Below are positions 2,385 through 10,758 of a stretch of DNA of 64,000 nucleotides, one piece after another. The position numbers and the translations under genes are program-made. Source of the DNA: Syntrophotalea acetylenivorans (lineage in GTDB: Bacteria > Desulfobacterota > Desulfuromonadia > Desulfuromonadales > Syntrophotaleaceae); assembly GCF_001887775.1 (NCBI RefSeq), contig NZ_CP015519.1:2170001-2234000 (forward strand). The letters are read 5' to 3'. Position 1 is the first letter of the stretch; each line of letters begins with the position of its first letter. The notes below the pieces were generated by a model, which saw only the letters and a list, made by a program, of their open reading frames with translations, did no database searches and was not told the origin of the DNA.

Positions 2385-3301
2385 CTATTTTTCATCTAAA
2401 ATTTCCTGCCGCTTCTCTTCTGAAAACCCATCCACATATTGGATCATTCCTCGCAGTGTATTGCCAAGAAAGTACCGCTCGCGGGCGCGGATATCCGGTG
2501 GCAGTTGCGCGACATTCCAGTAAATCTCATCATTTTCCATGAGCCAGGCCGACAGCCTTTCTTCCCTCTGTAACGGCTCGGCCGAGGCGGTTTCGGTCAC
2601 TCCACGAACCCAGAGCAGAAGCTGGCGACGAGCGATTTGTAAATGCTCCAGGGCCGCATCAGTGAGGCCGTAGTGGCCGAAGACCATTCGGCGCGGCGTC
2701 AGGGCAATCATCCGGTCAAGGGAGCCGAGGGCCACCTCCAGAAGAAATCGCGGCGGGGTGGCCGGGCGCATATAGATTCCTTGCGGCACTTCGCAGCGAA
2801 CCCCTGCGGCCTCACCGGCAAAGAGCAGATCGTAAATCAAATAGCAGCAATGGTGCTGGGCATGTCCAGGGGTGAGAAAGGTCCGCACGCCGGTCTTGCC
2901 GATGTGCTCTTCAAAGGTGATCCGGTCCGCCGGGACAGGAAGAATTTCCCCATACCTTTCGGCGAGCTTTCCCAACACTTTTTTTGAACCCTGCCAGAGC
3001 TTTTCCGGCGACGCCAGATGCTGGACCCCCCGGGATGGCAGACCACCCTGGCTTCGGGAAATTCACGCAGCAGGGCTCCCGTTCCGCCGGCATGATCGAT
3101 ATGGATGTGGGTCAGCAGAACGTAGTCAAGCCGCTCGACTTTGTGCCGGCGAAGCTCGCTGACCAGATGGGGGATAGTGGAGAGCGGCCCGGGGTCGACC
3201 AGCAGGGTGAACTGCTCCTCCCGGTAGAGCCAGGCGCTGATGAATTGGCGAAAACCTTCGAGGCCCGGCTGGTCAAGGTCGATACAGACAAGGTTTTCCA
3301 T
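2385..3301 (-). pseudogene. MBL-fold metallo-hydrolase, frameshifted
   Basis: Two overlapping frames together encode one complete metallo-beta-lactamase-fold protein of about 305 residues. The first frame carries THIHIDHAGG (zinc ligands at about 65-70) and runs to CHPGG. The second continues as VQHLASPEKLW and then the TPGHAQHH zinc motif and a long C-terminal helical part. The break lies at a run of six C on the plus strand (3026-3031); one extra base restores the frame. The start at 3301 has an AAGGAAG site. Such enzymes resemble glyoxalase II or YqjP-type hydrolases. Either a true frameshift or an assembly error is possible. Confidence 0.75.
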
Positions 3302-3478
3302 GGCGCTTCCTTGAAGAATGGTTGGGAAGGCCATGATAAGTTAAATGGGGGAAGGGGAAAAGCGCTTTGTCCGTCAAGTGTCCCCGAAGCTTATATTCTG
3401 ATGCGATGTGTTAGTTGCTTACCCAGAAGAAAAAATCTTGATCTCCCGGGTAAGCAACCGTTTGCCAAGAAAGTGCTG

Positions 3479-5322: not shown

Positions 5323-6415
5323 CCTCAATCTCTCCTTTCTTCAACAGGGAGCGCGTAATCTCCCTTATCCTTTTGGAAAATTGGCTTTGCGGGAACGCCT
5401 CCAGCACCGGGCATTTCATCCTGACAGCATTGCGTACCAGGTTGTCACTGGGTATGGCGCCGAGAAATTCGGCCGAGATACCAAAATAATCCCGATAGGC
5501 GGAGGCTATCCCTTGCCCCAGCTCCAGATCTTTCTTCTGTTCCACCTGATTGACAATCAACTTCGGCCCATGGGTCGAAACCTGTTCAGCTATGACGGCG
5601 CCTGATTCGGGGTCCATCGTGATGATGTGCGACAGTAATTCCTTGGGGGAACTGATACCTCGCACCACCTTCTCCTCGATCGCCTGGCTGACTACTCGGG
5701 TGGCTCCTGCTCGCTTGATGGCCTGTTTCAGGCCCCGAAAATAGGCTGCTTTGAGAAAGTGATAGGTATTTTCCATAGAAGTTGGAGCAGGAACAGCCAC
5801 CACGATCCGCTGGTGAGCGGCAAGGTAAAAATCGAGAACATTGTAGCTGGAGCCTGCTCCTAGGTCGATCAGGACATGATCCAGCTCCAGCGTAGCGAGC
5901 TGCCGGATGACTTTCTCTTTCAGAGCAAATTTCGGATTGGCCATGTCGAGCTGAGCACGGCCGCTGCTGATCAGCCATAGGTTGGGAATCGGGGAGGGAA
6001 GAAGCAAGTCGCAAATGGAAGGGACCGCACGGGAAAAAAGGTCGGTCAGGGAGATGGAGGGAGAAGGCATGCCCAGAATGGTATGCTGGTTGGCAGCTCC
6101 CAGGTCGGCATCAAAAATCGCACACTTCTTTCCCTGCTGAGCCAGGGCAATGGCCAGGTTGGCCGTGACGACCGACTTTCCTACTCCCCCTTTGCCGCTG
6201 CCTATAGCCCAGATTCGAGGGCGACTGTTTGGTGAACTTTGTTCGCGCAAAGCTTCTTCCTTTCCGAGGACGCCTACTGTTCGGATTAGACGTTTCTTGC
6301 ATAAGCAATGCCGGTATCGGGCAATGAGCTGCAGGAGGAAGTGGTGCCCAGGCTCCGGTCGAACTCGGGAGGAGGTCTCCAGAGGCGGTAAAAAAGGCGG
6401 TTTTAATGAAGCCAT
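5309..6415 (-). CDS. MinD/ParA-like ATPase
   Basis: A 368-residue P-loop ATPase. The deviant Walker A KGGVGKS is at about 75-81, a DADLGAAN switch follows, and VLIDLGAGSS forms Walker B. This places it with MinD/FlhG/Mrp-type proteins that dimerise on ATP and act as spatial or assembly switches. The roughly 65-residue extension before the P-loop is unusual. An ATG at 6415 or a TTG at 6457 could be the start. A possible minus-strand promoter (TTGAAA-19-TATAAT, 6477-6507) would start transcription near 6470. No flagellar genes lie nearby, so its cargo is unknown. Confidence 0.8.
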   Translation of the reverse strand: MASLKPPFLPPLETSSRVRPEPGHHFLLQLIARYRHCLCKKRLIRTVGVLGKEEALREQSSPNSRPRIWAIGSGKGGVGKSVVTANLAIALAQQGKKCAIFDADLGAANQHTILGMPSPSISLTDLFSRAVPSICDLLLPSPIPNLWLISSGRAQLDMANPKFALKEKVIRQLATLELDHVLIDLGAGSSYNVLDFYLAAHQRIVVAVPAPTSMENTYHFLKAAYFRGLKQAIKRAGATRVVSQAIEEKVVRGISSPKELLSHIITMDPESGAVIAEQVSTHGPKLIVNQVEQKKDLELGQGIASAYRDYFGISAEFLGAIPSDNLVRNAVRMKCPVLEAFPQSQFSKRIREITRSLLKKGEIEDADE

Positions 6416-6457
6416 AATAGGTTCGTGCTGAACCCGACGGCTATACGGATTCTGCAA

Positions 6458-6836
6458 AATCTTTTATAAGACCAGGATTATAATTGCTTATTCTATAAAA
6501 ATTTCAAGGTGTTGAATACTCTGTCAGGCCGTAAATTGTCATCGAATCTGGGCAGAATGACAGAAATTGGTCAGCCAACAGCCTCCTAGAAATTTAAAAT
6601 CTCTTTTAAAACGCTGCAGGCATCTTTCCTGACAACAAGGGCGCTGCCGCTATTTTTTCGGACAGCTCCCCAAGATGATAAGGTTGGGATTTCGGTGTAA
6701 AGCCTGATACTCTGCACTCTTACGAAAAGGTATGCTCCTTGCAAATCTTTAATACAATAACGACTGCTGAGCCAGTCTTTTTTTTGAACGAAGACCGCAA
6801 AGACCTATACCCCTAACTCGCGTAAGGAATACCCAG
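6458..6836. other. AT-rich divergent promoter region
   Basis: About 380 bases between the minus-strand ATPase gene and the plus-strand carrier-protein gene. It has several TA-rich blocks that could serve promoters in both directions, best seen as ATTATA at 6477-6482 for the minus strand. No gene, repeat or RNA fold is clear. Confidence 0.4.
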
Positions 6837-7187
6837 ATGAAAACGGTTAGAGTCTTATTTACTATCGCCCTGTTGGCTTTAATGACTACCCATTCCTTTG
6901 CCAAGGACATCGATGAAACCACGGAGAACCATCAACGGATTACAAAAAGATTTGTCCAGATCCTGAATGAACAGTGGGGAATCGACAAAGAAAAGGTCTC
7001 GGGAGAAAGTTATTTCTTGAGGGATTTTGGCGCAGACTCCCTGGATGTCATAGAGCTGGTTATGGCCCTTGAAGAAGATTTTGATATTGAGATTTATGAT
7101 GCGGAGTGGGAAAAAATAACCACCGTCAACTCGGTGATAGAGTTAATCATCGACAAAGAAGACCGCCGCTATTATCGGCTGTACTAG
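6837..7187 (+). CDS. acyl carrier protein-like protein with signal peptide
   Basis: A 116-residue protein. Residues 1-22 form a Sec signal peptide (Lys2, Arg5, core VLFTIALLALM, likely cut after SFA). Residues about 30-108 are an acyl carrier domain: GADSLDVIELVMALEEDF, with Ser68 as the expected phosphopantetheine site, then IEIYDAEWEKITTV. Carrier domains normally act in the cytoplasm. The ATG at 6837 has an AAGGAA site 8 bases upstream, which supports the version with the signal peptide. It lacks fatty-acid or polyketide neighbours. A secreted or membrane-tethered carrier is inferred; an uncleaved anchor is also possible. Confidence 0.75.
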   Translation: MKTVRVLFTIALLALMTTHSFAKDIDETTENHQRITKRFVQILNEQWGIDKEKVSGESYFLRDFGADSLDVIELVMALEEDFDIEIYDAEWEKITTVNSVIELIIDKEDRRYYRLY

Positions 7188-7284
7188 ATTGTTTTCGCGA
7201 AGGATGCGCAAAGGGGTATATTTTGTCATCTGCTCGAAGAACAGCCGGGAAGTTGTCAACCTTAACTAATCGAAGGAGAATAAC

Positions 7285-7632
7285 ATGAGGATTCTTATTG
7301 GTATCCTGTTCACCATCTGCTTCAGTCAAATTGCCCTTGCTGATACTACCTATGTCTGTACCCAAGACGGTATGGAACGCAAAATCGAAGTAGCTTACCT
7401 GGGCACAGATAAGGTCCCCTGTGAAGTCCGCTATACCAAGAACGGTGACACCCAGATACTGTGGACGGCCCAGGCCGAGGAAGGCTACTGCGAAGCCAAA
7501 GCCGCTGAATTCGTCGAGAAACAGCGAGGCTGGGGCTGGGAATGTGTTGAAAGTGCAGCAGTCATGAGTGAACCACCGGAGATGGCCGAACCGACCCCCC
7601 CGCTGGTGCCTGAAGAGCAGGGCCTCGAATAA
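7285..7632 (+). CDS. small secreted four-cysteine protein
   Basis: A 115-residue protein with a clear signal peptide (core ILIGILFTICF, cut after ALA at residue 19). The mature part has four cysteines (25, 46, 69, 87), presumably two disulfides, and the segment EGYCEAKAAEFVEKQRGWG. It ends in a Pro/Glu-rich tail. I recall similar periplasmic proteins of unknown function in gammaproteobacteria. A GAAGGAG site precedes the ATG. It lies 97 bases after the carrier-protein gene and shares its terminator, so the two may form one unit of exported products. Confidence 0.7.
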   Translation: MRILIGILFTICFSQIALADTTYVCTQDGMERKIEVAYLGTDKVPCEVRYTKNGDTQILWTAQAEEGYCEAKAAEFVEKQRGWGWECVESAAVMSEPPEMAEPTPPLVPEEQGLE

Positions 7633-7667
7633 TCGTCTGGATGTTGCTGAACAACTTGAGAATCAAA

Positions 7668-7719
7668 AGAGGCGACGGACTCCGGCTCCTGCCGGGCGAT
7701 CCGTCGCCTCTTCTTTTTA
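7668..7719 (+). terminator. Rho-independent terminator after the secreted protein gene
   Basis: AGAGGCGACGGA (7668-7679) pairs with TCCGTCGCCTCT (7700-7711) around a GC-rich loop and is followed by TCTTTTT. Since the upstream side also has an A run, it may work for the converging minus-strand gene too. Confidence 0.85.
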
Positions 7720-7770
7720 ACCATGCCACATAACCTGGTCAGCGAATCCGCAACCAGGTGCCGAGGCTTT

Positions 7771-8112
7771 TTATTTCACGAGCCGCAAGGCATAGGGAAC
7801 CTTGAAGTCCTTGCCGCTGGAACAGGCGATCGCGCCCATGATACAGAAGATCAGATGACAAATCGCCAGGGCGAAGAGTACCAGGACACCGATCAAAATC
7901 ATGGTCAAGAGCAAGCCGGCGGCATAACCGATGAGCGCTGTAATCGACCAGTTCAACGCCTCTTTCGCCTGGCTTACAACATAGGGATCGTCTTTTTTAA
8001 CCAGGTAAAACACCAGACCGGGGATAAAACCGAAAAATATGGTACCGATCCAGATAAGCAGGGCCATATTTTTGGATTCCTGGTCAACCGTCACATCCAT
8101 TTTTTCTTCCAT
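7771..8112 (-). CDS. DUF4870 family membrane protein
   Basis: A 113-residue inner-membrane protein with three to four membrane segments (about 17-38, 57-80, 80-98). The DPYVVSQAKEALNW motif around residues 42-55 is characteristic of DUF4870 (Tic20-like small membrane proteins). The function is unknown. The ATG at 8112 has an AAGGAGAT site. It is a single gene converging on the secreted protein gene. Confidence 0.8.
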   Translation of the reverse strand: MEEKMDVTVDQESKNMALLIWIGTIFFGFIPGLVFYLVKKDDPYVVSQAKEALNWSITALIGYAAGLLLTMILIGVLVLFALAICHLIFCIMGAIACSSGKDFKVPYALRLVK

Positions 8113-9417: not shown

Positions 9418-10758
9418 TTATTGCAAACACTGCAGCAAGCCCATGGCCCACTGACACGCCCCGCAGGGCTCTTCCTGGGTGTAACAATCCTGCTCGAAAT
9501 CATCTTCCTGCAACAGGTCGCAGGGAGCCACGGCACAGTTGCAGCAATAGGGATAGTCGAACTCATGCACATTTTCGCGGAAACCGCGAAAGGCCTGATC
9601 GTTCCAGATATCAAGCAGCGGCCGGTCGCTGACATTGCCGAATACCTTGGGCTTGACCAGCCGGTCCCAGTCGCTGATGAAACAGCGGAACTGATGCCAG
9701 AGAAAATAACAGGGGTGGACCGAACCATCCCAAGAGATAAAGGCCCCGCCGTCTTCGACAAAATCGCATTTCCGTTCGTAGCGGGGGACCGCAGCGGGCA
9801 GTTTCAACTCGACGCCCAGACTCTTGGCCAGTTCTTCCGCCTCGGCGAACAGGGCCTGCATCTGTCCGGCGTGGTCGGCGCTGCGCTTCATCAGACGCGG
9901 CATATCGAGAAAGACGTCCTTGCTCCGTGCCTCGGCCCGCAACTCATCAACTACCTCCATCATCCGAGCGATTTTGGGGTCGATCGTCGGCACAAAGCGG
10001 CCCAGTTCCCAGCGGGGATCGTAATCCTTCACATCCAGCCCCAGGCTGTTAACCTTGTCTCTCCAGCGGGTAAAGATCTCTACGGCGGCATCGGTGGAAT
10101 TGTCGTAAGCGACCTCATCAACATAGGCGCCGTCGTAAACCAGTGCCTGGGTGACGAGCATAAAATCGGCTCCCCTGGCAGCAACCCAGCGCAGGGTGTC
10201 CAGAAGCTGTTGCTTGTTTTCCTGCATCAGCACGAACTCGACCCCGACTTTCAGGCGGGTGTCGGGTTGACGCTTGCGGGCGGCAGCCAGATAGGCGAAG
10301 GCCTGCTCCATATCGCTGAGGTCTTCCCCTTCGCGCACTTTGCTGAAGGTATCGGGCTTGACCCCGTCTACCGACAAACAGAGGCGATCGAGGCCGGAGG
10401 CAACCAGATCCCGGGCCCAGCGCTCATCGAGCAGCAGGCCGTTGGACTGAAAACCGATCCAGGACTGTTCAGGCATAACGCGCCGGGCGCGGTGGATAAA
10501 GCCGAGCAGGTGGGGGTGCATCAGTGCTTCGCCGATTCCGTTGAGCAACAGGGCCTCCAGACGGGGAAAGACCGGCTCGAGGGCACTGAAGGTCGCATCG
10601 GTCATATCGGCATCGATAATGTTGCTGTCCGCGGCCTGCTTGACGCACATGGGGCAACGCAAATTGCAAAAGGTGGTGGTTTCAACAAACAACTTGCTCG
10701 GATAGTCTCTTAGCGGCGCCGGCAGAGCGGCGGGTTGCAAGGAGGGTTGCGAACTCAT
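9418..10758 (-). CDS. radical SAM/SPASM domain protein
   Basis: A 446-residue enzyme. The radical SAM cluster motif CNLRCPMC (Cys31, 35, 38) is followed by the LSVDG strand of the barrel. The C-terminal part has a cysteine-rich SPASM region (HPCYF, YCCNCAVAPC, then CYTQEEPCGACQ) that should bind extra iron-sulfur clusters. SPASM enzymes mostly modify peptides or mature metalloenzymes; this one resembles a Geobacter-type group annotated as putative metalloenzyme maturases. No target is certain. The zinc-ribbon-like gene at 11258 and a 16-codon frame at 11020 are nearby. The start ATG at 10758 has only a weak ribosome-binding site. Confidence 0.85.
   Translation of the reverse strand: MSSQPSLQPAALPAPLRDYPSKLFVETTTFCNLRCPMCVKQAADSNIIDADMTDATFSALEPVFPRLEALLLNGIGEALMHPHLLGFIHRARRVMPEQSWIGFQSNGLLLDERWARDLVASGLDRLCLSVDGVKPDTFSKVREGEDLSDMEQAFAYLAAARKRQPDTRLKVGVEFVLMQENKQQLLDTLRWVAARGADFMLVTQALVYDGAYVDEVAYDNSTDAAVEIFTRWRDKVNSLGLDVKDYDPRWELGRFVPTIDPKIARMMEVVDELRAEARSKDVFLDMPRLMKRSADHAGQMQALFAEAEELAKSLGVELKLPAAVPRYERKCDFVEDGGAFISWDGSVHPCYFLWHQFRCFISDWDRLVKPKVFGNVSDRPLLDIWNDQAFRGFRENVHEFDYPYCCNCAVAPCDLLQEDDFEQDCYTQEEPCGACQWAMGLLQCLQ

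Follow-up and report, generated by a model that had tools for sequence, protein, structure and literature searches.

The window, the whole 64,000-nucleotide stretch analysed here, corresponds to C1:2170001-2234000 of the single-contig 3.22 Mb genome of Syntrophotalea acetylenivorans (G000). Its forward strand carries at 6837-7187 a gene, delimited by profiles and homologs, for an acyl carrier protein (ACP) with a predicted export signal; the product comprises 116 amino acids plus a stop codon (coding 6837-7184). A Shine-Dalgarno-like AAGGA at 6824-6828 (forward strand) lies 8 nt before the ATG, which bears out the ribosome-binding site originally proposed for this start. The ATG at 6837 is probably the true start because the matches from three relatives (G001, G033, and G096) extend back to the first query residue. 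Residues 1-22 (6837-6902, forward strand) form a predicted Sec signal peptide with an inferred cleavage position after S-F-A, and the remainder (6903-7184, forward strand) forms the mature ACP-fold domain. Downstream on the same strand, a gene at 7285-7632 encodes a small protein with predicted export and four cysteines in its mature part, a loosely linked neighbor. A terminator-like hairpin (7694-7709, forward strand; from a hairpin search) follows both genes; four terminator-like sites were found in 6400-7800, against 1.5 expected in shuffled sequences.

The assignment of the mature part to the ACP family, as first claimed, was upheld by each comparison. The window copy passes PF00550 (E 1.9e-9; 38.1 bits against a cut-off of 20.8) and TIGR00517 (83.7 bits against 70.45), and its closest solved relative in a sequence search of the PDB is an ACP (E 2.3e-19). 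It retains the GADSLD motif, in which the serine of the DSL site is precursor Ser68 (codon 7038-7040, forward strand), aligned with the phosphopantetheine site Ser36 in E. coli ACP numbering; Trp91 (codon 7107-7109, forward strand) aligns with position 59 in the same numbering. An AlphaFold2 model of the mature part, built from three sequences and with a mean pLDDT of only 69, is helical, in line with a four-helix bundle. The top Foldseek matches of this model were ACPs: the 50 listed were, judged by their titles, ACPs or complexes possibly holding one, with TM scores by query length of up to 0.78 among them. The whole domain, the helix II motif DSLxxxELVMALEExF, and the predicted fold are thus those of AcpP (TIGR00517, PF00550); in contrast, the family described below differs from AcpP in its predicted Sec signal peptide, in the loss of the serine from three of six members, and in the substitutions A59 to W/R, Y71 to L, and L15 to W/F.

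Signal peptides were scored with a crude rule of our own, requiring a basic n-region, an uncharged hydrophobic core, and small residues at -3 and -1. By this rule, n, h, and c regions can be distinguished in the signal peptide of the window copy, MKTVRVLFTIALLALMTTHSFA^KD. The rule was passed by all six family members and by none of the 30 rows of ordinary ACPs (25 chosen by hand from loci of the class and five from the carriers, 28 of them distinct; the ordinary ACP of G108 was left out). Shuffled sequences passed in 9 of 20,000 trials when the N-terminal 29 residues were permuted and in 5 of 20,000 when the whole protein was, and 9 of the 306 window open reading frames of at least 60 residues passed as well. 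The rule itself placed the cut after S20 in several members; we place it after A22 on the basis of the conserved S-F-A/G. Across the five aligned members, S20 and F21 do not vary and position 22 holds either Ala or Gly, and the corresponding region of G108 reads A-F-G. The presence of a signal peptide across the whole clade and in none of the ordinary ACPs compared supports the predicted export of this family and agrees with the original prediction of a Sec signal peptide in the window copy.

The opposing possibility, that relatives start at a downstream codon and lack the hydrophobic segment, does not apply to four of five relatives; in three carriers (G001, G033, and G108) longer frames with earlier starts exist, and the aligning ATG was chosen. 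In the fifth relative, G012, the sole start upstream of the hydrophobic segment is a TTG; the n-region differs there, and no ribosome-binding site stands out. This TTG overlaps the end of a transposase-like gene, which we take to encode a REP-associated tyrosine transposase, and the G012 copy may be decaying.

A protein search of 136 genomes of the order returned five carriers at E values up to 1e-21: the window genome, G001, G012, G033, and G096. Identity to the window copy was 70% for G001 (same genus), 68% over residues 10-112 for G012 (same family), and 62% and 44% for G033 and G096, respectively, each from another family. A five-member profile run against 277 genomes of the class recovered the same five at 161-195 bits, followed by G108 at 97.7 bits; ordinary ACPs scored 94.3 bits and below, only 3.4 bits under G108, which was assigned to the family by its tree position and signal peptide. 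The G108 protein, also from the order, has 303 residues counted from its second ATG (L078 2514-3425) and is a natural fusion in which a signal peptide and three Sel1 repeats precede a serine-less ACP-like domain at the C-terminus. Of the three other members scanned, G012 (29.0 bits) and G096 (37.8 bits) pass PF00550 and G108 (19.4) falls below the cut-off of 20.8. The signal peptide and carrier combination therefore recurs in five relatives within the 136 genomes of the order.

Wider searches added no members. In a sample of 395 genomes of the phylum, with at most 12 candidates scored per genome, only the window genome matched at E values up to 1e-26. Two narrow N-terminal peptide patterns, which could not have caught members like G096, were run against contigs of 84,980 species and hit two loci, labelled Desulfuromonadales bacterium C00003107 and Desulfuromonadales bacterium MAG-BB-08, both metagenome-assembled and already counted as G001 and G033; the copies of these two sit on contigs of 3.2 and 6.2 kb. 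No match to the exported ACP was found among the viral contigs searched. Plasmids gave 128 matching records, all below 60% identity to the query; among the 10 and 60 matches listed, most are annotated as acpP or acyl carrier protein and some are unannotated, and a few of their alignments reach query residues 5-11; this comparison covered the matched stretches, and exported ACPs may occur among these records. As far as searched, the family is rare and narrow, with six members.

In a phylogenetic tree, the six exported domains form one clade (100/100, stem 1.64) apart from the 30 ordinary ACP rows, so the window copy does not group with the AcpP proteins of its relatives. Branching inside the clade has poor resolution, and the bootstrap had yet to stabilize; a very long branch leads to one distant row (OTH_L004). 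The ordinary ACP gene of the window genome lies elsewhere (G000:C1:406496-406759), following what appears by eye to be the end of fabG. The same genome holds a second ACP copy at G000:C1:18557-18751 (L090, G000:C1:16500-19500), which follows a fabG-like gene and has a frame broken after about 17 codons; it is a decaying duplicate.

Alignment of the six members with the 30 ordinary rows showed that the attachment site is serine in the window copy, G001, and G033, tyrosine in G012, glutamate in G096, and aspartate in G108. The original prediction that the protein keeps a functional ACP site thus stands for the window copy and fails for three of the six clade members, which have lost the serine. 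Helix II is largely retained, with E41, L42, A45, L46, and F50 present in all six. The three serine-bearing members also keep D35, D38, E41, and M44 (G001 has Val at 37), and their serine and its neighbors may have been kept by inheritance or by selection. We set aside serine conservation in these three as evidence of modification because 45 of the 94 positions aligned across their mature parts do not vary at all. Several positions fixed in all 30 ordinary rows are changed in all six exported members, among them L15 (to W/F), V40 (to I/S/M/T), A59 (to W/R), and Y71 (to L). At position 59, the window Trp91, the exported six have Trp (five) or Arg (one) and every ordinary row has Ala; positions 59 and 71 form part of the lining of the acyl pocket.

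In all 15 pairs of members, compared across 59 codons, synonymous change exceeded nonsynonymous change. Uncorrected Fisher p values ranged from 1.8e-16 to 0.03, and the weakest pairs were G001/G033 (p = 0.03) and G001/G012 (p = 0.02). For the serine-less pair G096/G108, 19.5 of 40.3 synonymous sites had changed against 23.5 of 136.7 nonsynonymous sites over the same 59 codons (p = 1e-4); the serine-less protein is therefore maintained, at least in that branch. The serine-less evidence rests most on G096, as G108 scores under the Pfam cut-off and the G012 gene may be in decay. Since three of six members have no serine, whatever the family does in common should be possible without the cofactor.

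The suggestion that the ACP and the four-cysteine protein make up an exported pair fared poorly. In the window, the four-cysteine gene is downstream of the ACP gene by 97 nt; in G012 it is also downstream, at a distance of 5.5 kb, and in G001 it comes first, with 24 nt between the two genes. No match was detected in G033 or in the stretches around the ACP genes of G096 and G108. The protein occurs in 6 of 58 relatives, and three of these (G006, G007, and G041) have no exported ACP. Comparison of the window and G001 copies shows purifying selection on it, and it matched nothing in Pfam or NCBIfam at E 0.1. Its AlphaFold2 model, built from two sequences, has a pLDDT of 74 with core blocks at 84-93, and found no PDB fold match with E below 0.001. 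In G012, the transposase-like gene (L042 8449-9423) abuts the exported ACP gene, and a fragment of the same kind (L042 15100-15552) lies in frame upstream of the four-cysteine gene.

Other neighbors recur in part of the family. G096 and G108 share a conserved row comprising a DksA-like zinc finger (its NCBIfam match is far under the cut-off), a lipoprotein-like protein of 140-143 aa, an exported 160-aa protein, the ACP, and a soluble protein of 160-167 aa. In G033, the row runs zinc finger, exported protein, and an unrelated 178-aa frame, followed by the ACP on the other strand. Close homologs of the exported protein (61-100% identity) were found only in G033, G096, and G108 among the 136 genomes, in each case no more than 0.9 kb from the gene for the exported ACP; distant homologs (33-39%) occur in G110, G002, and G003, all without an exported ACP. 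For all three close homologs to fall among the six carriers, the chance would be 5e-5 with independent genomes, an assumption that does not hold here, and the comparison was chosen after the loci had been seen. These proteins of 160-190 aa (L077 9220-9702; L078 1951-2433; L041 3545-4117) contain a WGCGTNC motif, and no match was found for two copies in Pfam or for one in NCBIfam. No single partner gene is common to all six carriers, and the changing neighbors argue against a single dedicated partner. A defense or toxin-immunity context, considered because of the patchy distribution and the small soluble neighbors, found no evidence; PADLOC gave no match at E 0.01 for the four proteins submitted.

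Synonymous divergence was lower for the exported than for the ordinary ACP genes in 3 of 10 pairs (p values uncorrected) and not in the other seven. The G001/G033 pair showed 12.5 of 36.7 synonymous sites changed in the exported gene versus 29.0 of 39.3 in the ordinary gene (p = 0.0004), and lower divergence was also seen for G001/G012 (p = 0.0007) and G000/G033 (p = 0.009). Together with the gene content of the loci, this suggests that the exported ACP gene has been exchanged horizontally; the same pattern of low divergence would arise if the 6.2 kb G033 contig had been binned wrongly. Low GC content was dropped as a sign of transfer: the exported ACP gene has a GC content of 0.431 in a window of 0.545, which is not telling because the ordinary ACP gene of the same genome is also low (0.463).

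ACP is regarded as a cofactor of the cytoplasm (or of organelles). In mitochondrial and plastid ACPs, the domain stands behind a cleavable targeting presequence, and the protein is imported into an organelle having its own fatty acid synthesis. The pairing of targeting sequence and ACP is common to these proteins and the present family, whereas the latter is predicted to head out of the cytoplasm. In E. coli, fusions of ACP to YebF or MBP are reported to acquire phosphopantetheine in the cytosol before export by Sec, with only a fraction of the exported fusion modified unless AcpS is co-expressed (PMC3418276). Phosphopantetheinylation ahead of export is thus possible in principle; preYebF-ACP and preMBP-ACP are, as described there, artificial constructs (PMC3418276), whereas the window copy is a natural gene. 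Salmonella IacP resembles the exported ACP in being accessory, outside fatty acid synthesis, and linked to exported proteins, but differs in that it is described as cytoplasmic, modified on Ser38, and serving acylation of SipB (PMC5279801). Periplasmic proteome papers mention ACP (PMC3608174, PMC6679007). Among titles and the beginnings of abstracts in open-licence PMC literature, a body that excludes preprints and includes few subscription journals, we found no natural exported bacterial ACP.

We give about an even chance to the reading that an ACP has been redirected to the periplasm, where it serves as a binding module that can do without phosphopantetheine. From the domain, the signal peptide, the single clade, the loss of serine with purifying selection, and the changing neighbors, all apparent at the level of sequence, we infer export itself, a binding role, partners, and a modification state. 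An ACP of the fatty acid synthesis type would have acquired a Sec signal peptide, in the simplest case a single time, and the gene would move from lineage to lineage within its order. Once exported and cleaved, the product would be a small helical periplasmic protein binding other exported proteins, and the phosphopantetheine arm would not be essential to the function common to the family; the window copy, with Ser68 retained, may still be modified by cytosolic AcpS before export. Sel1 repeats bind proteins, and a binding module is consistent with the fusion of the G108 domain behind three such repeats of a predicted exported protein. A conserved, naturally exported family in which three of the six known members have no serine for attachment would be a case of the ACP fold put to new use, as a binding module outside the cytoplasm.

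It is rather unlikely that the family acts as an exported holo-ACP, modified by AcpS in the cytosol and exported by Sec, with its thiol or acyl group used by a periplasmic enzyme. This would suit the retention of the serine and most surrounding residues in the window copy, G001, and G033, the passage of modified ACP fusions through Sec in E. coli (PMC3418276), and the presence of an AcpS-family gene in each of the six carriers (one in the window genome, its product without a signal peptide by eye). However, the serine is missing from half of the clade, the changes at positions 59 and 71 may remodel the acyl pocket that these positions line, and no acyltransferase or thioesterase was recognized among the adjoining reading frames, where profiles covered six window proteins.

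We regard as unlikely a mobile accessory gene of no settled function, in which an ACP copy captured by an export signal drifts in a variable region. The restriction to 6 of the 136 genomes of the order and the transposase-like genes adjoining both the ACP and four-cysteine genes in G012 are in keeping with it, as are the flanking genes. In the window and G001, the ACP gene lies between metallo-beta-lactamase-like and radical SAM-like genes (motifs identified by eye), which are 6 kb apart in the window with six other genes between them and 1 kb apart in G001 with, besides the ACP, only the four-cysteine gene; G002 and G003, of the same genus, have an apparent glycosyltransferase gene between the same flanks and no ACP or four-cysteine match. 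Drift is countered by the synonymous excess in every pair, weak as it is for the two G001 pairs, and by the signal peptide kept in all six members, and the GC content gives no sign of foreign origin.

A further version, a natural periplasmic holo-ACP loaded in the cytoplasm and sent through Sec, with the serine-less sisters as derived binding-only forms, appears quite improbable; if true, it would supply the periplasm with a group that cannot be produced there, a phosphopantetheine thiol or acyl thioester. Least probable is an ordinary cytoplasmic or membrane-anchored ACP whose hydrophobic segment is an uncleaved anchor or unused: it draws on the crudeness of the signal peptide rule, but the members have a short hydrophobic core with S-F-A/G behind it (five members) or A-F-G (G108), a segment that none of the 30 ordinary rows shows, and in G108 the signal is still N-terminal with the Sel1 repeats between it and the ACP-like domain. 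For the family as a whole, the serine-bearing branch, if loaded, would offer a route for acyl or thiol groups across the inner membrane, and because the clade includes members with and without serine, the two roles can be compared directly.

Two observations concern the flanking genes. The metallo-beta-lactamase-like gene of the window (2385-3334, reverse strand) is split over two overlapping frames, and its counterparts in G001 and G002 are single 308-aa frames. The radical SAM-like protein (9418-10758, reverse strand) has one to four matches in each of the 12 genomes of the family searched.
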